From contig NZ_JANUDX010000003.1 of the NCBI RefSeq assembly GCF_024810105.1, positions 124,001 through 188,000 of the forward strand: DNA of 64,000 bases, read 5' to 3'. The first letter of the stretch is position 1; each line of letters opens with the position of its first letter. Under the pieces are notes generated by a model. It saw only the letters and a list, made by a program, of their open reading frames with translations, made no database searches and was not told the origin of the DNA. Below are positions 4,326 through 54,024 of the stretch, one piece after another. This DNA comes from Stenotrophomonas sp. BIGb0135 (GTDB lineage: Bacteria; Pseudomonadota; Gammaproteobacteria; Xanthomonadales; Xanthomonadaceae). A program made the position numbers and the translations under genes.

Positions 4326-4413
4326 GGCGGCCAATATAACGGCTCCCCCCGTGATCGGCGATGTTTTGTAGTGCAGCCGCCGATGGCATCCCCATGCCAC
4401 CGGCGGCACGGGA

Positions 4414-5439
<1,026 letters not shown>

Positions 5440-5459
5440 GGGGGAACCTCGTGTTGGGT

Positions 5460-5609
5460 GTACCGACCGTCGGTCGGTACCTGCCTTGTTTGGGGGATGG
5501 GCACCGACCAACGGTCGGTACCTGCCGGAATGTTGAATGTGCGTGCCGACCAACGATCGGTACCTGCCGTGCCTTGGAGATGTGTACCGACCCACGGTCG
5601 GTACCTACC
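5460..5609. repeat. Array of four REP-type palindromic repeats
   Basis: Four 26-bp units begin at 5460, 5501, 5543 and 5584, a period of 41-42 bases. Each is an imperfect palindrome around CCGACCGT/ACGGTCGG, ending GGTACCTGCC (TACC in the fourth). Read on the minus strand each starts GNAGGTACCGACC; the fourth has the full GGTAGGTACC head. All four point the same way. The head plus palindrome resembles the GTAG-headed (SMAG-like) REPs of Stenotrophomonas. The 15-16-base spacers are unrelated to one another. The array lies between the dehydrogenase stop and the asd start and would be transcribed into a row of stem-loops. Confidence 0.88.
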
Positions 5610-5645
5610 GGTTCGGGAACCTCGCCTGTTGGCCGGCGCGGTTCC

Positions 5646-6701
5646 CTATCGTTTTGCGTCGTCGATTTTCTTGCCGCCCACGGTCGCGCCGCCGGTTTTC
5701 ACGGCAGCGACAGCATCAGCGTTGATCGCGCTCGGCGGGTGGCCGGCGTTCGGGCCCTGCCCGAGTGCGGCGGTCAGGTTGTCCACGGCCAGCTGCACCA
5801 TCGCCCGGCGCGTGGCCTGGCTGGCGCTGCCGATGTGCGGGGTCAGCACGATGTTGTGCAGGGCGAGCAGTTCCGGGCGTACCGTCGGCTCGCCTTCGAA
5901 CACGTCCAGCCCGGCCGCGGCGAGCCGGCCGTTGGCCAGGGCGTCGGCCAGTGCGAGCTCGTCGACGATGCCACCGCGGGCGATGTTCACCAGGGTGGCG
6001 GTGGGCTTCATCTTCGCCAGTGCGGCGGCATCGATGATGTGGTGCGAGGAGGCGTTGTAGGGCAGCACCAGCACCAGGTGATCGACCTGCCCGAGCAGCG
6101 TGTCCAGGTCCACGTACTGCGCGCCGACCTCGGCCTCGGTGGCCTCGGGCAGCCGCGAACGGTTGTGGTACAGCACGCGCATGCCGAAGCCGAGCGCACC
6201 GCGGCGGGCGATGCCCTGCCCGATCCGGCCCATGCCGAGGATGCCCAGCGTGCTGCCGTGGATGTCCGCGCCGAGCATGGTCTGGAACGACCACTGGCCC
6301 CACTGGCCGTCGCGCAGCCAGCGCTCGGACTCGGTGATGCGGCGCGCGGTGGCCATCAGCAGCGCGAAGCCGAGGTCGGCGGTGGTCTCGGTGAGTACGT
6401 CCGGGGTGTTGCTGGCCAGGATGCCGGCGGCGCTGAGCGCGTCGACGTCCAGGTTGTTGTAGCCCACCCCGACGTTGGCGATCGCGCGCAGCTGCGGCGC
6501 GTTGCCGATCTCGGCCGCGCCGATGCGTTCGTTGAGGGTGATCAGCGCCCCGTCCACGCCGGCCAGCCGTTCGGCCAGCTGCTGCGGCGTGTAGCGGGTG
6601 ACGTCGCTGGTCATGTCCAGGTCGAAATGCTGCCCGAGCTGCTCGATGACATCATCGAACAGCGGCTGGCTGACCCAGACCCGGGGGCGCCGATCAGCCA
6701 T
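5646..6701 (-). CDS. D-2-hydroxyacid dehydrogenase (glyoxylate/hydroxypyruvate reductase type)
   Basis: 351 residues. NAD(P)-dependent reduction of 2-oxo acids is expected. The Rossmann motif [15 protein letters not shown], then [10 protein letters not shown] (substrate Arg), the Asp/Glu region GLDVFEGEP and TPHIGSA with the catalytic His, are all present. The N-terminal half ([20 protein letters not shown]) also fits. It most resembles GhrB-type reductases; SerA is less likely because the ACT domain is missing. The ATG at 6701 overlaps the aroC stop by 8 bases, giving an aroC-linked transcription unit. The tail is Lys/Gly-rich and low in complexity. Confidence 0.88.
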
Positions 6702-7797
6702 CGATCGTGCCCGGGATGCGCGGGGTGATCTCGCCGACATCGCCACACTGGGCGCGGTGGCGCAGTGCCTGGTCCATCAGCACCAGGGCCATCATCGCCT
6801 CGGCGATCGGGGTGGCGCGGATGCCGACGCAGGGATCGTGGCGGCCGGTGGTGATGACATCGACCGCGTTGCCGGCCGCATCCACCGTGGCACCGGGCAA
6901 GCGCAGGCTGGAGGTGGGCTTGAGCACGATCGAGGCGGTGACCTGCTGGCCGGTGGAGATGCCGCCGAGGATGCCGCCGGCGTGGTTGCTGGCAAAGCCC
7001 TGCGGGGTGATCAGGTCGCGGTGCTCGGTGCCAAGCTGGGCGGCGCTGGCAAAGCCGTCGCCGATCTCCACGCCCTTGACCGCGTTGATGCTCATCAGCG
7101 CGGCGGCCAGTTCGCCGTCGAGCTTGCCGTAGATCGGCTCGCCCCAGCCGGGCGGCACGCCATCGGCGACCACGTTGACCCGCGCGCCGACCGAATCACC
7201 GGACTTGCGCAGCGCATCCATGTAGCTCTCCAGCGCCGGCACCTGGTCGGCGACCGGCCAGAAGAACGGGTTGTCTTCCACCGCCGACCAGTCATGCCCG
7301 GTCGGGGTGATCTCGCCCAGCTGCGAAAGGTAGCCGCGCACGGTCACGCCGAAGCGCTGCCGCAGCCACTTCTTGGCGACGACGCCGGCGGCCACGCGCA
7401 TGGTGGTTTCGCGCGCGGACGAGCGTCCGCCACCGCGCGGGTCGCGGATGCCGTACTTCTGCCAGTAGCTGTAATCGGCGTGGCCCGGGCGGAACTGCTG
7501 GGCGATGTTTGTGTAGTCCTTGCTGCGCTGGTCGGTGTTGCGGATCAGCAGCGCGATCGGGGTGCCGGTGGTGCGGCCTTCGTACACGCCGGACAGGATC
7601 TCGATGTCATCGGCCTCGCGCCGCGCCGAGGTATGCCGGCTCTTGCCGGTGGCGCGACGCTGCAGGTCGTGGGCGAACTCGTCGGCACTGATCTCCAGCC
7701 CGGGCGGGCAGCCATCGATCACGCAGCCGATCGCCGGACCGTGCGATTCGCCGAAGGTGGTGACGGTCAGCAGTCTGCCGAAGCTGTTGGAACTCAC
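6694..7797 (-). CDS. aroC: Chorismate synthase
   Basis: 367 residues, full length. It catalyses the last shikimate step, EPSP to chorismate, using reduced FMN. Signature stretches are [19 protein letters not shown] at the N-terminus, [18 protein letters not shown] in the middle and GISTGQQV towards the end. It overlaps prmB upstream by ATGA (7794-7797) and the dehydrogenase downstream by 8 bases, so the three are probably one operon. Confidence 0.97.
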
Positions 7798-8723
7798 GGC
7801 CGCTGCGCTGCCAGTTCGGTGATGCGGGCGCTGTGGGCGATCAGTTCACGGCATTCGACGGCAAAAATGCCCATCTGGCCGACCTTGAACTCGACCCAGG
7901 CAAAGTCGACTTCCGGCAGCAGCTTGATGAGGTGCTGTTCGGACTCGCCCACTTCGCAGATGAGCAGGCCATCCTCGCTGAGGTGCAGCGGGGCGTCGCG
8001 CAGGATCTTGAGGACCAGGTCCAGGCCATCGGGGCCGGCGCGCAGGCCCATGTCCGGCTCGTAGGAGTACTCCTGCGGCAGGGCATCGGTTTCGTCGTTG
8101 GTGACGTAGGGCGGGTTGGTGACGATGAGGTCGTAGTGGCGGCCGGTGAGACCGTTGAACAGGTCGGACTTGAGCAGGGTGACGTTGTGCGCCTGCAGGC
8201 GTTCCTTGTTCTCGTGCGCCAGCGCGAGGGCGTCGTCGCTGAGGTCGACGCCGTCCACTTCCCAATTGGGGTAGTAGTGGCCGATGGCGATGGCGATGCA
8301 GCCCGAGCCGGTGCACAGGTCCAGGGCGCGATGGACGTCGCGGCCGGCCAGCCACGGCTCAAAGCCGGTTTCGATGAGTTCGGCGATGGGCGAGCGCGGC
8401 ACGAGGGCGCGGCGGTCGCTTTTGAAGCTCAGGCCGGCGAACCAGGCTTCACCGGTGAGGTAGGCAGCCGGGAGGCGTTCGCTGATGCGGCGTTCGAACA
8501 GGGCCAGGACCTCGGCCTTCTCCGCGGAGGTGACACGGGCGGCACCATAGGCCGGGCCGAGGTCGTGCGGGAGGTGCAGGCTGTGCAGGACGAGCTGGGT
8601 GGCTTCGTCCAGGGCATTGTCGTAGCTGTGCCCGAAGGTGAGCCCGGCGGCATTGAAACGGCTGGTGCCGTAGCGGATCAGGTCGATGATCGTATGGAGT
8701 TCGGCGGCCGTTTCGGCAGTCAT
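7794..8723 (-). CDS. prmB: Ribosomal protein uL3 N5-glutamine methyltransferase
   Basis: 309 residues. It methylates a glutamine of ribosomal protein L3 using SAM. The SAM-binding [16 protein letters not shown] and the catalytic NPPYV are clear; [13 protein letters not shown] upstream of the SAM motif separates PrmB from PrmC-like enzymes. The ATG at 8723 was chosen because it begins [19 protein letters not shown], the usual PrmB N-terminus. It is the first gene of the leftward prmB-aroC-dehydrogenase group. Confidence 0.95.
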
Positions 8724-43370: not shown

Positions 43371-43480
43371 GCGCAACTCTGGCTGGTCGCTGCCGATGGC
43401 AGACGGGTGGGGCGGGTTGTCGCCCGCCGGATACGCCGCCATCATGACGGCCTCCTGAGGTGGCGCATTATCCGGACATC

Positions 43481-44020
43481 ATGCAGCTGACGCCAGTTTC
43501 GCCCGCATTCCGCCTCATCGCCCGCCTGGCCGCGCTGGCCGCTGTACTCGTGTTGAGCGCCTGCGGCGGCGGCAAGGCCACCCGCCCGACCGCCCCACCC
43601 GCCTCGACCCAGGTCTGGCCGACGGTGGCGCCAAACGACCCGCAGGCCGCCAACGCGGTGCTGATGCGCGCCATCGGCCTGGTCGGTACCCCGTACCGCT
43701 ACGGCGGCAACACGCCCGAGTCGGGCTTTGACTGCAGCGGTCTGGTCGCCTACGTCTACCGGGAAATGCTGGACCTCAAGCTGCCGCGCACCTCGCGCGA
43801 CCTGGCCGCGGTACAGGGCCCGAAGATCGAGCCGACGCGCCTGGCGCCGGGCGACCTGGTGTTCTTCGGCAGCCGCGGCAGCGTGTCCCACGTGGGCATC
43901 TACGTGGGCGAAGGGCGCTTCGTGCACGCCCCGAGCACCGGCGGCACGGTCCGGCTCGACTCGCTCGGCGGGGCCTACTGGAAGGACCACTACACGGGCG
44001 CGAAACGCGTTCTACACTAA
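43481..44020 (+). CDS. NlpC/P60 endopeptidase lipoprotein
   Basis: 179 residues. A lipobox (VLVLSAC, Cys 28) follows the signal sequence, then a C40 domain with the catalytic Cys 85 in GFDCSGLVAYVYREML, His 137 in VSHVGIYVGEG and His 149 in FVHAPSTGG. It should cut D-Glu-DAP bonds of peptidoglycan stem peptides. The ATG at 43481 was chosen over a GTG seven codons upstream. A paralogue follows after a Clp-type box. Confidence 0.92.
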   Translation: MQLTPVSPAFRLIARLAALAAVLVLSACGGGKATRPTAPPASTQVWPTVAPNDPQAANAVLMRAIGLVGTPYRYGGNTPESGFDCSGLVAYVYREMLDLKLPRTSRDLAAVQGPKIEPTRLAPGDLVFFGSRGSVSHVGIYVGEGRFVHAPSTGGTVRLDSLGGAYWKDHYTGAKRVLH

Positions 44021-44045
44021 GATGAACAGGGGCAAGGGCCAAATT

Positions 44046-44061
44046 TGTGATCGAAATCACA
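44046..44061 (+). promoter_or_regulatory. Perfect CRP/Clp binding box
   Basis: TGTGA, six bases (TCGAAA), TCACA: an exact match to the CRP consensus halves, embedded in A/T-rich DNA (TTGTAA at 44065). In Xanthomonads the CRP-like protein Clp binds such sites and responds to cyclic di-GMP. It lies 26 bases after the first NlpC/P60 gene and about 90 upstream of the second, so it probably acts on the second. Confidence 0.85.
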
Positions 44062-44151
44062 CAGTTGTAAACGAAAAATTAACGAAATTTGTACCTAATC
44101 ACTGTTCTTACACGGCATCATCACCCATCGTTTTTATTCAGTGACCGCCGC

Positions 44152-44928
44152 GTGACGACAGCCGACCGGAACTACCCAGGCCAGACCGCCGCCCCCAAGC
44201 GCAGCACGCGACCCGTTTTCCTCGCCCTTGCGCTCTGCCTGGCCAGCCTGCCGGCCTGGGCACAGACCGCACCGGCCACCGCTGTAGACGCCGCCCCGGC
44301 TGGCGCCAGCACCCCCGAATCCTCCGCGGTGGCCAAGCCCAAGGCTGATGGCCCCGCCCGCAGCAAGGCCGACGCCGCTGCCAGCGCCACCCTCGCCGCC
44401 CTGCTTCCGCACCTGGCCGCCAACGACACCATCCCCCTCATGGACCGCTCGGCGATGTTCGCCGGTGACCTGAGCCGCCTGCTCGCCAATTACGATGCCA
44501 GCACCGGTGCCACCGGCGCGGTGGTCGGCGGCGCTGCCGACAACGGCAAGGTGCAGTCGCTGCTGCGCCGTGCGATGACCCTGCTGGGCACCCCGTACCG
44601 CTGGGGCGGCACCTCGCCGGACAGCGGTTTCGACTGCAGCGGCCTGGTCGGCTACGTCTTCCGCACCGCCCTGGGCATCGAGCTGCCGCGCGTCTCGCGT
44701 GAAATGGCGCACGATGGCGAAGCCGAGCTGATCAACGACCGCAATGCCCTGGCTGCCGGCGACCTGGTGTTCTTCGGCCGCAAGGGCCGGGTCGACCACG
44801 TCGGCATCTACGTTGGCGAAGGCCGCTTCCTGCACGCCCCGAGCACCGGCAAGGACGTCCGCGTGGACAGTCTGGTCACCGGCTACTGGAGCGCCAAGTT
44901 CATGCAGGCCCGCCGCGTCGATCTCTGA
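44152..44928 (+). CDS. Exported NlpC/P60 endopeptidase
   Basis: 258 residues from GTG. An N-terminal signal-like segment (PVFLALALCLASLPAWAQ), an Ala/Pro/Lys linker, then a C40 domain: Cys 162 in GFDCSGLVGYVFRTALG, VDHVGIYVGEG and FLHAPSTGKD. The domain is close to that of its upstream neighbour, so the two look like an old duplication. The start is uncertain: GTG 44152 is the first plausible codon before the signal-like segment, while an in-frame TTG at 44089 would give a longer, less likely form. The A/T-rich region with the Clp box lies just upstream. Confidence 0.87.
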   Translation: MTTADRNYPGQTAAPKRSTRPVFLALALCLASLPAWAQTAPATAVDAAPAGASTPESSAVAKPKADGPARSKADAAASATLAALLPHLAANDTIPLMDRSAMFAGDLSRLLANYDASTGATGAVVGGAADNGKVQSLLRRAMTLLGTPYRWGGTSPDSGFDCSGLVGYVFRTALGIELPRVSREMAHDGEAELINDRNALAAGDLVFFGRKGRVDHVGIYVGEGRFLHAPSTGKDVRVDSLVTGYWSAKFMQARRVDL

Positions 44929-44954
44929 CCGACCGCTGGCACCGTAACGACCGG

Positions 44955-44982
44955 AAAGCCGCTGCCCTGCAGCGGCTTTTTT
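44955..44982 (+). terminator. Intrinsic terminator after the second NlpC/P60 gene
   Basis: Stem AAGCCGCTG/CAGCGGCTT with loop CCCTG and T6. Confidence 0.93.
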
Positions 44983-45114
44983 CATGGGCCGCCGCCCCAC
45001 CTGGCCGCCTCGCCATGGCCGCTGCCGCCCCCAACCCGCGTTGTCCCTCATATCGTTTCAGCAGTGACAGCAGAACCAAGTGCCTGCCGGTCCCACCGGG
45101 CAGGCCACGGACCC

Positions 45115-45134
45115 GGACGTGGGGCGGCACGTCC
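45115..45134. promoter_or_regulatory. Inverted repeat upstream of the sigma-54 activator gene
   Basis: Perfect 7-bp arms GGACGTG/CACGTCC around a 6-base spacer, 57 bases before the start codon. It could be an operator, or simply a leader hairpin. The rest of the gap contains no other strong signal. Confidence 0.4.
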
Positions 45135-45190
45135 AAGGCTTCCGGACCCGCATCGGACTCCGCCCATGCTCTTCGTCGACAAGGTGACGC

Positions 45191-46528
45191 ATGGCGGCAG
45201 TCCCCGTTTTTCCGGCCCGGTGTGTGATCTGGTTTGGGCAGCCCCAGGCAAGCGAGCGCGTGGCCCTGGCGGCTGCAGGCTGGCAGGTACGCAGCGTGGC
45301 CACGGACGACTGCGTGGCCATCGGCATGCGCGGCAGCGACCAGGTGGTCGGGCTGCTGGACCTGCGCAGCATCGTGCCGGCCAACCTGGCGCGGCTGCAG
45401 GCGCTGCTCGTCGAGCACCGCCACATGAAGCTGCTGGCCATCCTGCCTGCCGGCGGCGGCACCATCCCGGCGGCCTTGCAGCCGCTGCTGGCGGCCTGCG
45501 TGGAGACCTGGACCGCACCGGTGGCGCTGGGCTGCATCGTGCAGCGCCTGCAGCAACTGGCCGGCGATCCGCAGACGCCGGTTGCCCATGGCCCACAACA
45601 CCTGATCGGTGACAGCGCCGTGCTGCAGGTGGCACGCGGCGCGATCCGCAAATTCGCCCCCGTCGAACTGCCGGTATTGATCACCGGCGAGACCGGCACC
45701 GGCAAGGAGCTGGCCGCGCAGGCGCTGCATGCCCTGTCGCCACGCCACGCCCGGCCCTTCCTGGCGGTCAACTGCGGGGCGATCCCGGCCGCGCTGGTGC
45801 AGTCGGAACTGTTTGGCCACGAGCGCGGCGCCTTCACCGGCGCGGCCAGCCGCCGCCTGGGCCTGTTCGAAACGGCCAACGGCGGCACCGTATTCCTCGA
45901 TGAAATCGGCGACCTGCCGCTGGATGTGCAGACCAACCTGCTGCGCGTGCTGCAGGAAGGCACCGTCGAGCGGGTCGGCAGCAACCGACCGCTGGCGGTG
46001 GACGTGCGCGTGCTGGCGGCCACCCATGTCGACCTGGAACAGGCGGTGGAACGCGGCCAGTTCCGCCGCGACCTGTTCTACCGGCTCAACGTACTGCGCC
46101 TGCCGATGCCCGCCCTGCGCGACCGTGGCAGCGACATCATGCTGCTGGCCCACCACTTCCTGGCCAGCTTCCGCGACCGCCACGTGACCCGCGCGCGCGG
46201 TTTCAGCAGCGACGCCACCCTCGCCATGGAGCGCTTCAACTGGCCGGGCAACGTGCGCGAACTGCTCAACCGCGTGCAGCGCGCGGCGATCGTCGCCGAC
46301 GGCGAGCTGATCGGCGCGGCCGACCTCGAACTGGTCCCGGCGCAGAGGGCGATGCCGCAGAAGATGCTGCATGACGCACGCCAGGTCGCCGAACGCGAAA
46401 CCCTGCTGCGCGCCCTGCGCCAGAACGACTTCAACATCGCCGCCTGCGCCCGCCACATGCAGGTCTCACGCGTCACCGTCTATCGCCTCTGCCGCAAGCA
46501 CCAGCTGGCCCTCCCGGAACTACGCTGA
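45191..46528 (+). CDS. Sigma-54-dependent enhancer-binding protein (VpsR/FleQ-like)
   Basis: 445 residues. The N-terminal 1-130 region is a receiver-like fold without a clear phospho-acceptor Asp, as in VpsR- and FleQ-type regulators. The AAA+ domain has Walker A GETGTGKE (166-173), the sigma-54 contact loop GAFTGA (213-218), Walker B GTVFLDEIGD and the RNAP-facing WPGNVRELLNR. A Fis-type helix-turn-helix ends it (NIAACARHMQVSRVTVYRLC). The last gene of the fap-like operon (fapF) lies 220 bases downstream, read toward it. A -24/-12 promoter precedes fapA, so this protein is the obvious candidate activator. Cyclic di-GMP binding is possible by family but not visible. Confidence 0.9.
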   Translation: MAAVPVFPARCVIWFGQPQASERVALAAAGWQVRSVATDDCVAIGMRGSDQVVGLLDLRSIVPANLARLQALLVEHRHMKLLAILPAGGGTIPAALQPLLAACVETWTAPVALGCIVQRLQQLAGDPQTPVAHGPQHLIGDSAVLQVARGAIRKFAPVELPVLITGETGTGKELAAQALHALSPRHARPFLAVNCGAIPAALVQSELFGHERGAFTGAASRRLGLFETANGGTVFLDEIGDLPLDVQTNLLRVLQEGTVERVGSNRPLAVDVRVLAATHVDLEQAVERGQFRRDLFYRLNVLRLPMPALRDRGSDIMLLAHHFLASFRDRHVTRARGFSSDATLAMERFNWPGNVRELLNRVQRAAIVADGELIGAADLELVPAQRAMPQKMLHDARQVAERETLLRALRQNDFNIAACARHMQVSRVTVYRLCRKHQLALPELR

Positions 46529-46628
46529 GCCAGACCAACAACACGGCCCGCGCACCGGGGCGGCGCTCCCTCTCCCTCGGCGTCACTGCCCAACTGCATC
46601 AGACCAGCAGCCCGCCTCTTGTTGAAGG

Positions 46629-46722
46629 GCGCGCGTCGACGGCGCGGGGTTCAGGACGGTATGCGTGGACTTCCCGGAACGGGAGGTCGCGCGCCGAAGG
46701 CGCAGGGTTCGAGTGGGATGCG
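46629..46722. repeat. Two imperfect direct repeats between the activator and fapF
   Basis: Copies at 46629-46665 and 46687-46722 share CGCGCG, CGA, GGCGC, GGGTTC and a final ATGCG; each can form a small GGCGC hairpin. They are unlike the REP elements elsewhere in the window. They may also end the fapF and activator transcripts. Confidence 0.5.
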
Positions 46723-46750
46723 CATCCGCACATGCATGGAGCGCCTCCGC

Positions 46751-48055
46751 TCACAGCATGTACGGCACCTTGAAGGCCAACGTGAAGTCCGGCGCATCCG
46801 GGGTCAGGCCGATGCCGAGCATGCTCACCAGCGTCGTATTGCGGTTGAGCGCGTAGGTAATGCCGAGGTTGAGCGTGCCGGCATTGGCGTCGCTGCCGAT
46901 CACCTTGAGCCACTGCCCGTTGCGGTAGCGCGTGGAGGCACGGCGGCTCAACTTGTCGCTGAAGGAAATGCTCAGGCTGGTGCGCTCGTTGAACGCGAAG
47001 GCCACGCCGGCGCCGAAGTAGTACGAACCGCCCAGCTTCACCTCGCCCGGGTTGACCGTGTCCGGATTGGCATCCAGGTCATCGAAGCTGCGCGCGAAGG
47101 AATGGATGTAGCCAAGGTTGGCGAACAGGATCGCCGGGTCGGCGGTCTTCACCGCCGACAGGCCGACGTTGGCCTGCCACACCCCGTTGCCGGTGGGCTG
47201 CTGCTCGGGCACCGCGAAGCGGATGAAATCATCGTCGTCGCGCTCGAGCACCTTCCAGTCCACGCCGTAGGGCGCGCGCCCGGTCGGCGCGGTGGCGCCG
47301 ACGGTAAGCACCGTCTCCGGCCAGCGGCCGTGCTCGGCGAACAGACGGTAGTTGCCGCTCAGGCCGACATCGCCGATGCCGTTGCCGGTGGTCTCCTCCT
47401 GCGCGATGGCCGCGGCCGAGCCGCCGGCGCCGCCCTTCTGGAACACGGTCTTGCGTGCCAGGTAGGGCACGTCCAGGTTCAGCGTCAGCCGTGGGCTCAC
47501 GCCCCAGCGCGCGGCGAGGTTGTAGGTGAGCGTGTCCGACTCGACGTTCTCGATGGCGATGTTGCCCAGGAAGATCGCATCCAGCGCCAGGAAGCCGTTG
47601 AGGGTGACCTGCTTGCGGTCATAGCGCGCGTAGGTGAGGCTGTTTTCGATGGTGAAGCGGCGGCTGAACAATGCGGCCTGCTGCTGTTTGACGTCGTCCA
47701 CGCTGCGCCGCGAGGCCTGCTTGGCTTCCTGCGCCTCGGCGGCGCTGCTGGCATAGCCATCGGCGCTGGGCGCCGCGGCCGGCGTGCCGGCGGGCAGCGG
47801 CGGCGGTGCACCAGCCGCACTGGCCACCGGCGCGGTCTTGCCGCTCAGGCGCGCCTGCATGGCCTGCACCTGCATGTCCAGTTCGCGCAGGCGGCGCACC
47901 TCCTGGGCGTAGTTGGCCTTGAGTGTTTCCAGTTGCATGATCAGCGCCTTGACGTCGGCTTCGTCGGCCGGTGCGGCCTGCGCCTGCGCGCCGGCCGCCG
48001 CCATCAGTGCCAGCGCCGCCAGCGCCAGCGGGGTTGCTCGAATCGTGGTCTGCAT
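46751..48055 (-). CDS. fapF: FapF-like outer-membrane channel (functional amyloid export)
   Basis: 434 residues, as in Pseudomonas (about 430). A signal peptide (cleaved near AQA-Q) precedes a coiled coil (about residues 33-72: ALIMQLETLKANYAQEVRRL), an Ala/Pro linker and a plug-like segment. A beta-barrel of about 12 strands follows, ending FTLAFKVPYML. In Pseudomonas the coiled coil forms a trimer and the barrel exports the Fap subunits. It is the last gene of a six-gene operon. The ATG at 48055 starts the signal peptide; the open frame extends upstream but without merit. Confidence 0.75.
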   Translation of the reverse strand: MQTTIRATPLALAALALMAAAGAQAQAAPADEADVKALIMQLETLKANYAQEVRRLRELDMQVQAMQARLSGKTAPVASAAGAPPPLPAGTPAAAPSADGYASSAAEAQEAKQASRRSVDDVKQQQAALFSRRFTIENSLTYARYDRKQVTLNGFLALDAIFLGNIAIENVESDTLTYNLAARWGVSPRLTLNLDVPYLARKTVFQKGGAGGSAAAIAQEETTGNGIGDVGLSGNYRLFAEHGRWPETVLTVGATAPTGRAPYGVDWKVLERDDDDFIRFAVPEQQPTGNGVWQANVGLSAVKTADPAILFANLGYIHSFARSFDDLDANPDTVNPGEVKLGGSYYFGAGVAFAFNERTSLSISFSDKLSRRASTRYRNGQWLKVIGSDANAGTLNLGITYALNRNTTLVSMLGIGLTPDAPDFTLAFKVPYML

Positions 48056-48101
48056 TGCCTTGGCCTGCCTTGTGTTGTCACGCCCCCACCCCGCCGTGCC
48101 G

Positions 48102-48860
48102 TTACTGGCCGGGTCCCATGCCCACACCCCGTACCAGCGTCATCGCCTGGGCCACGTTCTGGCTGAGCGGGACGTTGTTGGCCAAGGACTGGCGGACAAG
48201 ATCGATCTGCATGCGATTGCTTGCCGCCTGGCCATCACTGCCGATGGCGATGCTCTGCCCGACGCTGCCGTTGCGGATCCACTGCTGTACCGCGCCCACG
48301 CCCTCGATCTGCAGCTGGACCCGGGCGTTGTTGCCGTCCAGTTGCGCCACCGCGCTCACCCCGCCCTGCTGCACGCTGGCCAGGTGCTGGCCCTCGCTGG
48401 CCGGTGCCGGCGCCTGGCCGTCACGCACGGTGAGGTGGGTGGTGTTGCTGGCCACGTTGCCGTCGCCGGCCACCTGGATGCTCTGGGTAAGCCCGGCCAC
48501 GTTCTGCAGGCCACTGGCGTCGATGCTGCGGCCGGGGGTCACCGGCAAGGGAGCGTCGGCGGCGGTGACCGTCACCGACGGGGTGAAGCTGACCTTGGGC
48601 GTGCTGCCCTGGCTGAAATCCATGCCCAGCGTGAGCGCGCTGCGCGCGGCCTGCCCACCGCTGTTCCACTGGGTGATCATGGTCACCCCGAACCAGGCCA
48701 CGCTGCTGCCGTTGACCGTATAGCGGCCGCGCATCAGGTTCAGTTCCGGATCCGGGATCTCGCTCAGGCCCTTGCCGGGCCGTCCTTCCTGCGCATGCAG
48801 CGGTGCGGCGCCCAGCAGGGTGAGCAGCAGTACGCCGTGCGTCCATTTCGCGATATTCAT
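48102..48860 (-). CDS. fapE: FapE-like exported amyloid accessory protein
   Basis: 252 residues. Signal peptide MNIAKWTHGVLLLTLLGAAP (cleaved near LHA-Q). The body contains IPDPELNLMRGRYTVNGSSV, then beta-rich, Gln/Asn/Ser-containing stretches (VAQLDGNNARVQLQIEGVGA, NVAQAMTLVRGVGM). No catalytic motif is seen. AGGAGG lies 6 bases upstream of the ATG. It is placed at the FapE position by size, export and order; FapE is a minor fibre component in Pseudomonas. Confidence 0.65.
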   Translation of the reverse strand: MNIAKWTHGVLLLTLLGAAPLHAQEGRPGKGLSEIPDPELNLMRGRYTVNGSSVAWFGVTMITQWNSGGQAARSALTLGMDFSQGSTPKVSFTPSVTVTAADAPLPVTPGRSIDASGLQNVAGLTQSIQVAGDGNVASNTTHLTVRDGQAPAPASEGQHLASVQQGGVSAVAQLDGNNARVQLQIEGVGAVQQWIRNGSVGQSIAIGSDGQAASNRMQIDLVRQSLANNVPLSQNVAQAMTLVRGVGMGPGQ

Positions 48861-48868
48861 GGTGCCTC

Positions 48869-49567
48869 CTAGAACAAGTCGGCATGGGTAAAGCCGAAGT
48901 CCACCAACTCCGCGTCGGTGATCGGCCCCTGCCGGGCGTACAGCGAACGTGCACTGGGCCGTTCACCGGGCTGCAGCAGCACCGTGTTGCGATCGAAATC
49001 ACTGCCGATCACGACAAAGACGGCCCGCGACGGCCACGCCTGGAGAAATTCGCTGACCGGAATGCTGCGGTTGCCCAGGATCGGGTCGGCCACATCGACC
49101 ACGTCGTCACGGACCTGCTTGAGGACCACGAAGTGGCGGAAGCCCCGCACATCCATCAACACCAGCCCGGGCACGCGCAGCGAGCGCAGGCGCTCTTCGT
49201 TGACGCGGTAGCCGCGTCCACGCATGCCCATCGATTCCACGTAACGCTTGATGTCCAGCAGCGAGAAACCGCGCTGGTGGACCAGTTGCGGGTCCGAGAC
49301 CCCCATCATGCCTTCGATCACCGTGCCTTCGTCCGCCTCCAGGTGGTATGCGTAACGCAGGATGGTGGCCAGCGCCGCCGCGCCACAGCTGTAGTCGGTG
49401 TGTTGCCGCACCACGTTGCGGAAGCGCCGTTCCTGCATGCTCTCCACGCGCTGGGTGAGCACCGCGCCGTTGGGCAGTACGCCGCTGAAGCCGATATCGC
49501 CGGCGCGCGCGGCGCCGGACGGCAGCATCAGCAACATCAAGGACCCGCACAGTGCGTGCTTCCACAT
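48869..49567 (-). CDS. fapD: FapD-like C39 peptidase
   Basis: 232 residues. Signal peptide then a C39 papain-like domain: Cys 61 in HTDYSCGAAALATILRYAY, His 145 in GFRHFVVLK and Asp 161 in VADPILGNRS. In Pseudomonas FapD is the only peptidase of the system and is needed for export and assembly of the subunits. C39 domains usually cut leader peptides at double-Gly motifs. GGAG lies 9 bases before the ATG at 49567. It is followed by fapE after 8 bases. Confidence 0.85.
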   Translation of the reverse strand: MWKHALCGSLMLLMLPSGAARAGDIGFSGVLPNGAVLTQRVESMQERRFRNVVRQHTDYSCGAAALATILRYAYHLEADEGTVIEGMMGVSDPQLVHQRGFSLLDIKRYVESMGMRGRGYRVNEERLRSLRVPGLVLMDVRGFRHFVVLKQVRDDVVDVADPILGNRSIPVSEFLQAWPSRAVFVVIGSDFDRNTVLLQPGERPSARSLYARQGPITDAELVDFGFTHADLF

Positions 49568-49623
49568 CGGCTTGGCTCCGGAAAAGGAGGGAGCCCCTGC
49601 CCCAAAGGGGGAGAATGGGACAG

Positions 49624-49660
49624 GGGCCCCCGGGGGCCCGGCCATTGGCGGATGGCCGGG
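49624..49660 (-). promoter_or_regulatory. Stem-loops between fapC and fapD
   Basis: A 9-bp stem CCCGGCCAT/ATGGCCGGG (49637-49660) overlaps a 16-base GC palindrome GGGCCCCCGGGGGCCC (49624-49639). There is no U-tract. Such structures between a major subunit and downstream genes can protect the upstream message or cut read-through; which one applies is unknown. Confidence 0.55.
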
Positions 49661-49704
49661 TTTGTTGCGCTCAACGCGTACTGCTTGCGAAAACGGACAA
49701 CGTG

Positions 49705-51171
49705 TTACTCGCCGGTGCCACCACCGCCCCCGGTGGAGGGCTGGGCAACCGCCAGGGCCAGGCTGTTGGCCTGCAGGTTGCCGGTGCCGGCGGCCACGTT
49801 CACCCCGATGTTGCCGGAGGCGCCGGAGAACGCACTGCCGGACAACGCCGCGGTATTGGTCGCATCCACGTTCACCCAACGGGTGGTGGACACGGTGCCG
49901 CTCAGGCTGGCATACAGGTCGGCCACGCCCAGTTCGACGAACCGGCTGGTGCCACTTTCATCGGTATCGAAGGCGATACCGCCCACGCCTTCCCGGTTCG
50001 GGTTGGGGGTTGCGTTCTGGATCTCGTTGTCCATGTCGATGTGGCCGGTTGCGTTGCCACTCGGATGGTCGAGTTCACCACTCCAGCTATCCAGGTAGTA
50101 ATTGTCTTTCTGGTAGGCGTTGCCGCTGCCACTGTAGGTGCCGGCACCGAAGGCCAGCGTGCCGCCGGCGACGCGACCACGCAGGCTCACATCGACGGTG
50201 TCGGTCATCGAACGCAGGTAGCCTGCGTTGCTGACCGCGTTGCCGGTGGAGACCTGGTTGGAGCTGATGCTCGAGGTGGCATAGGCGCTGGTGGCCACCG
50301 ACGCGGCGAGCGCGTTCTTCTGCTCGTTGTTGTTGCCCGAGGCGACGTTGGCCCCGATGTTGCCGGACGCGTTGCTGAAGGCATTGCCGCCCAGGCCCGC
50401 GGCATTGGTCACGCCGGAGTTGAGGGTGGTGTTGCCGGCGCCGTACTGGTTGACGAACACCTCGGCGTCGGCCATGCCGAAGCTGAAGGAGGCATCGGCC
50501 GCGGACAGCGACGCGGCGTTGTCCTGGGCATTGTTGTCGCCGGCGGCGACGTTGAAGCCGAGGTTGCCCGAGGCATCGGAACCGACGTCATCGGCGATCG
50601 AGGCGCTGTTGGTCACCAGGCTGTTGGCGGCGGCGTTGTCGGTGATCGACTGGCGGTTGTCGATGATCGCGATGGCGGCCGAGTCGAGGTCGATCGAGCC
50701 GGTGATTTCCGGGTCGCCCGAGAAGTTCACGTCCGAACTCAGGCGCATGTCCTTTTCAAGGTTCACATCGACGCCGTGGTTGTTCTTTTCCTGGCGCTCG
50801 TCGGCCTGGATGTTGCTGGTCTTGTTGACGTTCTCGTTGACGGTCACGTCACGGGTACGGGTCACGCTGCTGTTGGTGGTGCTGTTGTTGGTGGTAGTGG
50901 TGTTGCTGGTGGTGTTGTTGTTGCGGGTGTTGTTCCAGGTGCGGTTCCAGGTACGCGAATCGTTGTCGTTGCGCGTATTGGTCTCGATGTTGGTGTCGAT
51001 GTTCGTATCGACATCGGTATCGACGTTGGTGTTGAGGTTGGTGCGGGTTTCAACCACGTTGTGCAGGTGGTTGATGAACGCGCTCTGGTTCTGGTTGTCC
51101 TGCGCGGCGACCGATGCGGACGCGGCTGCGATCGCAATGGCCAATACGGTACGGTGCATGGTGGTGTTCAT
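49705..51171 (-). CDS. fapC: FapC-like major amyloid subunit, divergent
   Basis: 488 residues. Signal peptide cleaved near VAA-Q, then an Asn/Thr/Asp-rich low-complexity region (about 45-105). Three amyloid-type repeats follow, at about 198-222, 262-290 and 445-476, each with the pattern ASGNxGxNVAAGxxNxQ. The first two lie close together; the third follows a 155-residue linker rich in Gly, Asp and Tyr. There is no cysteine, whereas I recall a C-terminal CXXC in Pseudomonas FapC. The ATG at 51171 has AGAGGG upstream. It would form the fibre body. Confidence 0.72.
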   Translation of the reverse strand: MNTTMHRTVLAIAIAAASASVAAQDNQNQSAFINHLHNVVETRTNLNTNVDTDVDTNIDTNIETNTRNDNDSRTWNRTWNNTRNNNTTSNTTTTNNSTTNSSVTRTRDVTVNENVNKTSNIQADERQEKNNHGVDVNLEKDMRLSSDVNFSGDPEITGSIDLDSAAIAIIDNRQSITDNAAANSLVTNSASIADDVGSDASGNLGFNVAAGDNNAQDNAASLSAADASFSFGMADAEVFVNQYGAGNTTLNSGVTNAAGLGGNAFSNASGNIGANVASGNNNEQKNALAASVATSAYATSSISSNQVSTGNAVSNAGYLRSMTDTVDVSLRGRVAGGTLAFGAGTYSGSGNAYQKDNYYLDSWSGELDHPSGNATGHIDMDNEIQNATPNPNREGVGGIAFDTDESGTSRFVELGVADLYASLSGTVSTTRWVNVDATNTAALSGSAFSGASGNIGVNVAAGTGNLQANSLALAVAQPSTGGGGGTGE

Positions 51172-51215
51172 GGTGCCCTCTCTCTCATCACAGACAATCG
51201 GGTGGATGTGACTAC

Positions 51216-51848
51216 TCACGGGGTGGACTGCACCGAGATGCTCAGTTGGTTTGCGGTGGCGTTGCCGGATCCCGCGATCTGATTGAGTTGCAGGACGCCG
51301 TCGAAGCCCTGCAGCGCGGTGCCTTCCACCGCCACGCTGCGGGTTCCGGCCGGCCGACCGCGGTTGACGGCCCCCTGCCCCCCTGCTGACGCGAGCGCCC
51401 CCGACGCGGCCAAGGCCTCGTCGTTCGACTCGCGTATGCCCTGTTGCGCCAGCGTGGCAGTGACGACGTTGCGCGTCGCGTTGCCGGTGCCGCTGGCCTG
51501 GTTGATCATGGCGACGCCGCTGGCGCCGTTCAGTGCCTGCCCGCCGATGCTCGCGCTGGCATGCATCGCGCCGTCGGACAGCACCTGGTTGCCGGCCTGC
51601 CGCTGGCGTGCATCGACGGTGATGTGGGCGGTCTGGCCATTGGCGATCCCGAGCAGGTTGGCCTGCTGGTTGAGGTCGCCGGCGGTCATGTTGACGGTGA
51701 TCGCACCGTCGGCGCCGGACAGCGCACGGCCGTCGATGCGGCTGGTATTGAGGTAGGACAGCATGGCCGCGTAGTCATCGGCCTGCTGCGCATGCAGCGG
51801 CGATGACAGCACCAGGGCCAGCACTGCCAGGCGTGGCCAGCGGTTCAT
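51216..51848 (-). CDS. fapB: FapB-like amyloid nucleator/minor subunit
   Basis: 210 residues. Signal peptide MNRWPRLAVLALVLSSPLHA then three repeats at about 40-69, 102-133 and 176-206. All share GxALxGxxG, then NQASGTGNATxN or NMTAGDLNQQAN and beta-prone tails. They resemble those in the FapC-like protein, as in Pseudomonas where FapB nucleates the fibre. No cysteine. The start overlaps the fapA stop (ATGA), so translation is coupled. It is the shorter of the two repeat proteins. Confidence 0.72.
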   Translation of the reverse strand: MNRWPRLAVLALVLSSPLHAQQADDYAAMLSYLNTSRIDGRALSGADGAITVNMTAGDLNQQANLLGIANGQTAHITVDARQRQAGNQVLSDGAMHASASIGGQALNGASGVAMINQASGTGNATRNVVTATLAQQGIRESNDEALAASGALASAGGQGAVNRGRPAGTRSVAVEGTALQGFDGVLQLNQIAGSGNATANQLSISVQSTP

Positions 51849-52375
51849 TTGCCAGGCCCGCCCGCGGGTTGGCCGAGCGGGAACTGCGCCAGCGCACCGC
51901 GTACCTGGTCGCCGATGCCGCGCGTGGCACCGGTCACCGCGCCCATCGGGCCGCCGATGGCATTGCTGAACTGGCCGCCGGACAACATGCCGCTGTCGGT
52001 GACCTTGCCCAGGGTCGAGTTGACCGTGTTGCCGGTCACCCGCTCGATGGTGGTCTGTGCGTGGCCGACGCCACTGCCGGTGTTGGAGCCGAGCGCGGCA
52101 TAGTCGTCCTCGCTCAACTCATCCATGCCGGTCGAGGTGCCCAGCGCCTGGCCCACCTCACGCTTGGGCGAGGGATCGGCGATGAGCGCCATGCCGGGCG
52201 GCGCGGGCCGATAGGCGGGACGGGTCGAGACATCGCGCAGCAGCACGATTTCACCCGGTTGCGCCTTGACGCCCTGGCGCGCACCCGAGGCGTGCGCGGC
52301 GACCGGTGCCGTCAGTACGACGGCCATCAGCCAGAGGCCGGTGTAGCGAATGCGGTGTGCGACTACGCTGTCCAT
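51845..52375 (-). CDS. fapA: FapA-like exported protein of the amyloid operon
   Basis: 176 residues. Signal sequence (MDSVVAHRIRYTGLWLMAVV, cleaved near AHA-S), then GEIVLLRDVSTRPAYRPAPPG and a C-terminal Gly-rich part (SNAIGGPMGAVTGATRGIGDQV). No catalytic motif. In Pseudomonas FapA modulates the fibre make-up. GGAGGG lies 6 bases before the ATG at 52375. It is the first gene after the sigma-54 promoter. Confidence 0.65.
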   Translation of the reverse strand: MDSVVAHRIRYTGLWLMAVVLTAPVAAHASGARQGVKAQPGEIVLLRDVSTRPAYRPAPPGMALIADPSPKREVGQALGTSTGMDELSEDDYAALGSNTGSGVGHAQTTIERVTGNTVNSTLGKVTDSGMLSGGQFSNAIGGPMGAVTGATRGIGDQVRGALAQFPLGQPAGGPGK

Positions 52376-52408
52376 GGCGCCCTCCTTCGAAACATGCGGA
52401 GGGGTAAC

Positions 52409-52423
52409 GCAGCATTCGTGCCA
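52409..52423 (-). promoter_or_regulatory. Sigma-54 (-24/-12) promoter of the fap-like operon
   Basis: On the minus strand TGGCACG, AATG, CTGC: 10 of 11 positions of the TGGCACG-N4-TTGC consensus, with GG and GC at the right distance. Transcription would start near 52397, giving a leader of about 22 bases that contains the GGAGGG of fapA. Confidence 0.85.
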
Positions 52424-52486
52424 AGTGGCAGAACCCAGCAAACACGGGGGCTGGCGGCACCACGGCGGGTCGCGCGGCGGGCACGA

Positions 52487-52609
52487 TGTTACAGATTCGT
52501 TGGCAACACCCACCGCTGAACAAGCCGTGGCGACGCCGACAGGCCCGTCGTTGCTGGCATGCAGCGCGGTGTATCAGCGCTGTTACACCGGCTGATACAG
52601 CCGTTACAG
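52487..52609. promoter_or_regulatory. Candidate activator binding sites upstream of the sigma-54 promoter
   Basis: Three copies of a (T/C)GTTACA motif (52487-52494, 52581-52588, 52602-52609). A perfect inverted repeat TGTATCAGC/GCTGATACA (52570-52599) encloses one of them. They lie about 65-200 bases upstream of the -24 element, where enhancer-binding proteins act. Confidence 0.5.
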
Positions 52610-52647
52610 TGCCTGCTCAGCTCGGTGACGGGTGCCGGCCGCGCACG

Positions 52648-52673
52648 AAAAAGCCCGCATCCGCGGGCTTTTT
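52648..52673. terminator. Intrinsic terminator of the symporter gene
   Basis: Stem AAAAAGCCCGC/GCGGGCTTTTT around ATCC; works leftward for the symporter message and isolates the fap-like promoter. Confidence 0.92.
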
Positions 52674-52695
52674 CGACACGACCCTGGCGGGCGGG

Positions 52696-54024
52696 TCAGG
52701 ACGACCGCTCCTCCAGTTCGTCCACGCCCAGGTTGGTGGACGGGTTGTCGTAGACCGCCTTGTCCAGCAGCCCGGTTTCCTTGGCCACCAGCACCGGCAC
52801 CAGCATCTGCCCGGTCACGTTGGTCATGGTGCGCATCATGTCCAGGATGCGGTCGATCGCGTACAGGTAGCCGATGGTCTCCAGCGGCAGGTTGGCCGCG
52901 CTCAGCACCACCGTGGCCATCACCACCGCCGTGCCCGGCACGCCCGCGGTGCCGAAACTGCCCAGCACCGAGGCGATCAACACCACGATGTACTGTTCCG
53001 GGGTCAGCGGCACGCCGGTGTACTGCGCGATGAACACCGCGCACAGCGCCGGGTAGATCGCCCCGCAGCCGTCCATCTTGATGCTCGCCCCCAGCGGCAC
53101 CGCGAACGAGGCATAGTCCTTGTTCACGCCCAGGTTGTGGGTGATCGAGCGCATCGCCGCCGGCATCGCGGCAAAGCTGGACGAACTCACGAACGCCACC
53201 TGCATGCCCGGGGCCGCACCACGGAAGAACTTCAGCGGGTTCAGGCCATGCGCGAGCAGCAGACTGCCGTACACCACCACGATGTGCAGCGCGCAGGCCA
53301 CGTACAGCGCCAGCACGAAATTGCCCAACGGCAGCAGCTTCTCGAAACCGTAGCTGCCCACCAGCCCGGCGATCAGGCCGAACGTCCCGAGCGGGGTCAT
53401 CTCCAGCACGAAGCGCGTCACCTGGATCATGATGTCGCTCATCTGCCCGGTCAGCTTGCGCGCCTCGGCCACCTTGTCGCCCAGCTTCACCATCGCAAAG
53501 CCCAGCAGGCCCGCGAAGAAGATCACCGGCAGGATCGACCCGCGCCCGGCCGCCAGGACCGTCTCGCCGGCCGCATTGACCCGCGTGCCGATCCCGGTCA
53601 GCGCGTAGAACACGTTGGAGGGCACCACGTCCATCAGCACCTTGACCACGCTCGGCACTTCGCGCGGTGTGTAGCCGTGGTCCATGCTCAGGCTCAGGTT
53701 GCCGGTGCCCGGCTGCATGATCGTGCCGACCGCCAGCCCCACGCATACCGCCAGCGCGGCAGTGATGATGAACCACAGGAACGTGCGCCCGCCCAGCGCG
53801 GCCACCGATTTCTGGCCGTGCAGCGAGGAGATCGCGTTGATCACCGCGAAGAACACCAGCGGCACCGCGATCATCTTGATCAGCGTCACGTACAGCTCGC
53901 CCAACGGGCCGAACCAGAGTTCCGCCGCCGGCCCCAGCAGCCAGCCGGCCAGCGCGCCGAGCACGAAGCCACCCAGCACGCGTTGCCAGAACGGGATCCG
54001 CAACCACGCAGACACCAGCTTCAT
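52696..54024 (-). CDS. Dicarboxylate/amino acid:cation symporter
   Basis: 442 residues, DAACS (GltP/DctA) family, eight membrane helices plus two hairpins. The hairpin-1 serine-rich VAFVSSSSFAAMPAAMRSI and the helix-7 to hairpin-2 IKMDGCGAIYPALCAVFIAQ (the NMDGT-like motif) are present. It imports C4-dicarboxylates or acidic amino acids with Na+ or H+. GGAAGG lies before the ATG at 54024, which was chosen over one 23 codons upstream because MKLVSAWLRIPFWQRVLGG begins the family's first helix. Confidence 0.93.
   Translation of the reverse strand: MKLVSAWLRIPFWQRVLGGFVLGALAGWLLGPAAELWFGPLGELYVTLIKMIAVPLVFFAVINAISSLHGQKSVAALGGRTFLWFIITAALAVCVGLAVGTIMQPGTGNLSLSMDHGYTPREVPSVVKVLMDVVPSNVFYALTGIGTRVNAAGETVLAAGRGSILPVIFFAGLLGFAMVKLGDKVAEARKLTGQMSDIMIQVTRFVLEMTPLGTFGLIAGLVGSYGFEKLLPLGNFVLALYVACALHIVVVYGSLLLAHGLNPLKFFRGAAPGMQVAFVSSSSFAAMPAAMRSITHNLGVNKDYASFAVPLGASIKMDGCGAIYPALCAVFIAQYTGVPLTPEQYIVVLIASVLGSFGTAGVPGTAVVMATVVLSAANLPLETIGYLYAIDRILDMMRTMTNVTGQMLVPVLVAKETGLLDKAVYDNPSTNLGVDELEERSS

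Follow-up and report, generated by a model that had tools for sequence, protein, structure and literature searches.

What kind of export system do six co-oriented genes and a neighbouring regulator gene of Stenotrophomonas sp. BIGb0135 encode, and how is it switched on? The locus lies at positions 45191-52423 of a 64,000-nucleotide stretch of this genome (hereafter the window; contig NZ_JANUDX010000003.1, positions 124,001 to 188,000), and an earlier note, made from the sequence alone, had read it as a fapABCDEF-like functional amyloid operon with its own sigma-54 activator. Our analysis makes us highly confident that the window encodes a full Fap functional-amyloid system, its operon controlled by a sigma-54 activator of its own and its subunits predicted to form amyloid.

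The six leftward open reading frames (ORFs) of the locus (46751-52375, minus strand) are open, as is the rightward regulator ORF (45191-46528, plus strand). The six follow the order fapA-B-C-D-E-F on one strand, as had been claimed, and each product matches its own NCBIfam Fap model. The gene fapA (51845..52375) encodes a periplasmic chaperone-like protein of 176 amino acids (aa) (NF058617, E-value 4.2e-8) and fapB (51216..51848) a minor, nucleating amyloid subunit of 210 aa (NF058557, 2.6e-23); the product of fapC (49705..51171; 488 aa; NF058558, 7.2e-50) is the major amyloid subunit. Further downstream, fapD (48869..49567) specifies a periplasmic C39 cysteine peptidase (232 aa with the start set at MWKH; NF058616, 1.3e-76; PF03412, 1.1e-17), fapE (48102..48860) a minor, extracellular subunit of 252 aa (NF058559, 5.5e-22), and fapF (46751..48055) an outer-membrane, trimer-type barrel with an N-terminal coiled coil (434 aa; NF058560, 3.9e-113). 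All six proteins carry signal-peptide-like N-termini, in which a hydrophobic stretch is followed by Ala ahead of the likely cleavage point (judged by eye), in agreement with the export signals described in the note.

The published minimal Fap repeat pattern, G-x4-N-x3-G-x6-N (as quoted in the accessible part of PMC3792158), was found three times in FapB, three times in FapC (at residues 202, 270 and 453) and not at all in the five remaining proteins of the locus; none of 500 residue shuffles of either subunit reached three repeats. The stricter motif GNxGxNVAAGxxNxQ, which the note had ascribed to both subunits, holds for FapC, where two of the three repeats conform and the third reads VASG, but not for FapB, which has the looser repeat only. 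The catalytic triad of FapD is conserved (C61/H145/D161), and FapF matches the solved barrel of Pseudomonas UK4 FapF (PDB 5o65) with an E-value of 2.9e-80 and 42% identity; the predicted Cys/His/Asp peptidase and the coiled-coil beta-barrel channel were thus both recovered. FapC hits two FapC chains of known structure, 9nqd (3.4e-13) and 9u4u, and a Foldseek search with its AlphaFold2 model returned the FapC fibril 9u4u as the sole PDB match at E<=1e-3. In this model, the repeat core (approx. residues 171-340 and 421-480) is better predicted (block means 63-87), and the N-terminus (1-162) is disordered, with values under 50. Asn, Thr and Asp abound in the N-terminal tract (30, 24 and 15 of 145 residues), the length of which varies strongly between relatives.

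We also considered that these genes might encode a related Fil-type pilus or secretion system, as FapF also matches FilC (3.7e-20) and FapD also matches FilB (1e-33). However, the Fap models score far higher (378 vs 73 bits for FapF/FilC and 257 vs 117 bits for FapD/FilB), models for FapA, FapB, FapC and FapE match too, and the two subunits carry three Fap repeats each. The scores favour the Fap models, and the Fil-type assignment, to which we give almost no credence, was rejected.

Several observations weigh against a straightforward assignment of the window operon to the described Fap family. All six proteins score below the NCBIfam equivalog cut-offs, and the overall confidence of the FapC model is low (predicted local distance difference test, pLDDT, 59.7). 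The C-terminal C-x-x-C of the two Pseudomonas FapC proteins examined is missing from the window FapC, because neither FapB nor FapC of the window contains any Cys; the FapC of the 10 Xanthomonad relatives examined likewise ends in a tail lacking C-x-x-C. The cut-off for FapF was passed by none of the genomes in three surveys (0/297, 0/370 and 0/91, the last being the genus), and we therefore read it as presumably tuned to Pseudomonas. In comparison with the Pseudomonas fapABCDEF operons (UK4, PAO1), the gene order, the six families, the 3+3 repeats, the protease residues of FapD and the coiled coil plus barrel of FapF are alike, whereas the sub-cut-off scores, the divergence of FapF, the Asn/Thr/Asp-rich tract and the tail of FapC, and a covarying double hairpin described below set the window operon apart. 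Judging by these sequence comparisons, "Fap system, divergent" is the preferred name for it, rather than that of the NCBIfam equivalog.

The regulator gene, which adjoins the 3'-end of the operon, encodes a BrfA-like sigma-54 enhancer-binding protein of 445 aa (PF00158, 6.3e-69), composed of a pseudo-receiver-like N-domain, an AAA+ domain and a Fis-type helix-turn-helix (HTH). Its GAFTGA loop is intact, as the note had stated, and is located at residue 213. The genome harbours two rpoN genes (G000:C2:59875-60345 and C1:113466-113927); the second match lies approx. 0.9 kb from a match of another sigma-54 activator. The window protein was the best match within its own genome for 14 of 14 Pseudomonas fap activators, a comparison that included four of the seven own paralogues, and it is 43-44% identical to the five Pseudomonas activators with which it was aligned (alignment A2). 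In a tree of 67 rows, including 14 of the 76 Pseudomonas activators, 98% of bootstraps placed the seven paralogues on one side (branch 99/66), and the window protein grouped with the Pseudomonas fap activators. These comparisons suggest that it is orthologous to Pseudomonas BrfA, or close kin of it.

The model of the activator (pLDDT 88) matches structures of NtrC1, FleQ and VpsR (Foldseek, including 7v2b and 8p53), so that it shares domain layout and fold with the VpsR/FleQ class of enhancer-binding proteins responsive to cyclic di-guanosine monophosphate (c-di-GMP). It differs from VpsR, which is not known to have a GAFTGA motif, in possessing one. The N-domain looks like a degenerate receiver (there is a weak match to the VpsR-type domain PF20161, 7e-4, under the Pfam cut-off) and may, by analogy, sense c-di-GMP as BrfA does. 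In FleQ, an Arg following Walker A contacts c-di-GMP. Two points count against this reading of the activator: the residue at the FleQ Arg position is Gln in the window protein, and the split between activator and paralogues has a low Shimodaira-Hasegawa-like approximate likelihood ratio (SH-aLRT; 66), with long paralogue branches. Since the contact residue of the FleQ type is not conserved, sensing of c-di-GMP by the window activator is drawn solely by analogy with BrfA.

Regulator and operon were found together in nearly every case. In a survey of 91 genomes of the genus, in which the activator was called at E<=1e-110, 83 genomes encoded the FapF barrel; the activator was detected in 82 genomes, every one of them a FapF carrier with the activator gene beside fap. 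The single FapF carrier without it (G716) is 77% complete; the other eight genomes lacked both FapF and activator, two of these (G690 and G719) being 85% and 76% complete. All six fap genes plus the activator were identified in all 14 loci fetched from the genus and in each of the 10 loci from the family whose barrels are of the same class (L073-L082), and the gene block is syntenic in relatives. The profile matches of FapC and FapF, the fibril match of the FapC model, the synteny and this co-occurrence (82 of the 83 FapF-bearing genomes) are checks that the earlier note had put forward; its observation is confirmed and its interpretation supported.

The position of the activator gene is not the same throughout the genus: in 52 of the 82 genomes it is convergent and placed 3' of fapF, as in the window, and in 30 it is divergent and placed 5' of fapA. 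The six divergent-type activators included in the tree cluster together (100/100), and we therefore read the relocation as a single event. Outside the genus, class-wide loci with barrels above 300 bits (L098-L109) had an activator in 10 of 12 cases, and a convergent activator was found in 76 of 80 Pseudomonas loci; two of the remaining four end just past fapF. In five other family loci (L083-L087), FapB, FapC, FapD, FapF and an activator are present and FapE occurs in one (L087); FapA was not found in these five. Each has between one and three ORFs resembling FapC, of which some overlap, together with a more distant activator, and the FapC and FapE models match in L087.

The promoter region of fapA contains two kinds of candidate control sites. 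A -24/-12 element of the sigma-54 type, TGGCACGAATGCTGCG (52408..52423, minus strand; GG-N10-GC), is situated 48 bp before the fapA ATG, which bears out the promoter predicted in the note and coincides with the end that the note had set for the locus. Counts for promoter and palindrome refer to 25 Xanthomonad loci (the window, 14 of the genus and 10 of the family), the family loci L083-L087, where FapA was not found, being left out. The element, with conserved flanks, is present in all 25, at 40-61 bp before the fapA ATG, and is the best-scoring site in 24 and tied in L078. Sigma-54 is thus the sigma factor that the fapA promoter of the window would use. About 160 bp upstream of this promoter there is an 18-bp palindrome, TGTAACAGCGCTGATACA (52570..52587, minus strand), and a half-site, TGTAACA (52487..52493, minus strand), lies closer to it. 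Allowing up to two mismatches, TGTAWCAGNNCTGWTACA has a single match in the whole genome (4.62 Mb), the one upstream of fapA. We propose that the palindrome is an upstream activating site (UAS), that is, the putative enhancer site of the fap activator.

The distribution of the palindrome agrees with this proposal in the genomes with the convergent arrangement. With at most one mismatch, 36 sites were found in 35 of the 91 genus genomes (reversed-pattern control, 0). For 33 of them the distance upstream of fapF is 4-6.5 kb, which places them before fapA; every one of these belongs to a convergent-type genome (33 of 52). The three remaining sites are those of G684 (on another contig), a second one in G703 and one in G725. 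A variant palindrome, TGTAACAGCGCTTATACA, occurs both in G703 (C1:1310386, away from fap) and in G725 (C61:1524, on a contig other than that of fapF), and a second target is possible there. In Pseudomonas, where the fapA promoters could be located in 78 of 80 loci, the looser form TGTNWCA-N4-TGWNACA precedes fapA in 71 of 78 (shuffles mean 0.02), although these loci are related to each other and the counts are not independent; 63 of 108 such sites are positioned 81 bp before the -24 element. The looser form matches exactly in 10 of the 25 Xanthomonad loci.

Set against the proposed control sites are the following. The count of 25 of 25 for the -24/-12 element stands without a shuffle control. 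The palindrome is not uniform: 14-16 of 16 positions agree in 8 of the 25 Xanthomonad loci and 12-13 in 16, scores of 12-13 being reached by 0-3 of 200 shuffles, and among these loci L082 has no match. In each of the six divergent-type loci that were examined the palindrome is degenerate (scores 12-13), and at up to one mismatch it is absent from all 30 divergent-type genomes.

The degeneration or absence of the site in divergent-type relatives that keep the activator would fit if the latter were a mere neighbour controlling other genes, and fap were driven by another regulator owning the palindrome (e.g. of the Clp/CRP type); binding of the activator to the palindrome is, moreover, a prediction. 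We nevertheless consider this improbable, as co-occurrence of activator and fap is near-perfect, their linkage is constant and persists although the activator gene has switched flanks, and the same family of sites is found before Pseudomonas fapA. In addition, the CRP-type site, TGTGA-N6-TCACA, differs from the palindrome. We therefore retain the reading of a dedicated activator.

A further candidate element was found within the operon, in the gap between fapC and fapD, where folding of the transcript gives two strong hairpins (z -3.2). The first (49637..49660, minus strand) has a 9-bp stem, CCCGGCCAU/AUGGCCGGG, and the second (49589..49631, minus strand) a 16-bp stem with a C-rich loop. Folding z-scores of -2.9 or lower were obtained for all 22 Xanthomonad loci folded, the window included; for two other loci of the class they were -2.3 and -3.8, while Pseudomonas reached only -1.3 to -2.1 in three loci. 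An alignment of 22 of the 25 sequences was analyzed (L078, L079 and L082, in which the cut-out stretch missed the element, were dropped), using as the tested structure the window's own fold, a choice that favours this structure in the measure of paired cells. Changes on both sides were observed in 10 of 25 pairs (1 of 500 shuffles was as high), and cells changed on both sides numbered 31, compared with 11.0 +/- 3.1 after shuffling (0/500). The covariation score was 0.233 vs 0.149 shuffled (0/500), and there were 24 further pair types (18/500). Sliding the structure along the alignment gave fewer both-side-changed cells (4-17) and lower covariation scores; a point to the contrary is that the structure slid by -1 yields 11 both-side pairs and 25 further types, as against the 10 and 24 observed.

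An RNAalifold consensus computed on the sequence alignment (15 pairs) was different and poorer, because distant rows are misaligned in hairpin 1, and was set aside for the window's fold. The element is the top genome match of its own model (1.2e-12; the window is among the training sequences), and a weak second match lies at G000:C11:93852-93929 (E 0.0086). An Rfam scan of positions 45000-52800 gave 10 matches, all below the gathering scores; those of the hairpin region to 6C RNA (RF01066; 31 bits vs 47, E 0.45) and to BjrC68 (20.5 vs 39) were taken as chance.

A structure backed by covariation at this position could be a 3' stabilizer or a partial terminator, which would favour the subunits over the machinery. 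It might also be a plain transcription terminator, with fapDEF expressed from another promoter, as the stems are strong and a different hairpin follows fapC in Pseudomonas, ending in a T tail at 38 of 68 loci. In 13 of the 14 genus loci, however, few T follow the reported stem (1-3 in 8 bases; L064 has 5, and the hairpin reported for L058 is another one), and no sigma-70-like promoter was detected in 44900-52800, which carries little weight since 0.5 would be expected by chance. Moreover, according to the accessible text of PMC9207406, fapA-E of Pseudomonas fluorescens PF07 rise together and fapF does not. A plain terminator is thus the less likely function, though a more serious contender than the two alternatives discussed above, and we favour a stabilizer or partial terminator.

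How much of this is new can be judged from the literature, as far as the accessible parts of the sources go. Fap of Stenotrophomonas and Rhodanobacter was reported in 2013 (PMC3792158), and a GTDB-wide Fap survey exists (PMC12392863); the mechanism of FapD and FapF has also been described (PMC5557850). The 2013 operons belong to the same order, Xanthomonadales, and the parts seen of that paper mention, for these operons, neither a regulator gene nor a sigma-54 promoter nor an RNA element. In strain PF07, an RpoN (-24/-12) promoter was located before fapA by 5'-rapid amplification of cDNA ends (PMC9207406, 2022), and BrfA, encoded by the reverse gene after fapF, was characterized by deletion phenotypes and BrfA/RpoN mutants in the same work; BrfA is a c-di-GMP-responsive direct regulator (PMC13101488). 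The window system resembles this one in the reverse activator adjoining fapF, the -24/-12 element, the Fis-type HTH and the related 18-bp palindromes. It is unlike it in the identity of the activators, in the diverged N-domain and ligand contact of the FleQ type, and in the genus-level occurrence of the activator on the fapA side (30/82). The note's view that a sigma-54-controlled version in a Xanthomonad is little described was therefore too strong, and the surprise is lower than it claimed. Among the matches listed by our literature search, outside which most subscription papers fall, a Xanthomonad fap regulator, the palindrome or a fapC-fapD RNA hairpin was not found. The kind of operon and its layout are already described; novelty for a specialist may lie in the shared palindrome, in the move of the regulator gene and in the hairpin with its covariation.

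Two further observations concern neighbouring and related genes. Directly ahead of the activator gene there are two consecutive NlpC/P60-like secreted proteins (43460-44928, plus strand; read from translations). A second Fap-like cassette occurs in the family (L088-L097; in L089 at approx. 3650-8310), in which a FapD-type C39 peptidase and a FapF-type barrel (shown for L089 and L091) are accompanied by a small protein that by eye resembles FapE, a second small protein that looks secreted and, where Fap-repeat subunits would stand, a large Gly/Asn-rich protein. All 10 loci fetched show these ORFs again, and one of the ten has an activator. The distant barrel class to which they belong gave 55 matches scoring 125-169 bits, including one fragment, and several genomes carry both kinds. 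Possibly, this cassette exports a different fibre via a Fap-type pore.

The following course of events can be envisaged for the window system. Upstream of fapA, the activator would bind both the 18-bp palindrome and the proximal half-site, and its GAFTGA loop would open the sigma-54 RNA polymerase bound at the -24/-12 element. The operon would then be transcribed as fapABC-DEF, with the double hairpin after fapC favouring the subunit part over fapDEF. Extrapolating from work on Pseudomonas, Sec would export the six proteins, FapF would act as a trimeric gated pore, the cysteine protease FapD would license secretion and FapA would serve as chaperone; FapB would nucleate the fibre, and FapC, by stacking of its three repeats, would build a cross-beta fibre with a Greek-key fold that goes into the biofilm matrix. 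On balance, we lean slightly towards a more general reading, in which gammaproteobacterial Fap is run by one ancient, co-inherited cassette: a near-single-target sigma-54 activator, a palindrome (TGTNWCA-N4-TGWNACA) common to Pseudomonas and Xanthomonads, and an RNA element at fapC that sets the ratio of subunit to machinery. In one lineage of the genus, the activator gene would have moved to the other side of the operon, with a concomitant decay of its site.

These results extend a well-studied biofilm amyloid of Pseudomonas to a genus whose members almost all carry the FapF barrel. With a common palindrome, direct tests of what turns on Fap become possible in several genera, and the covarying hairpin may explain how a cell could obtain fibre subunit in large excess over export machinery from a single operon.

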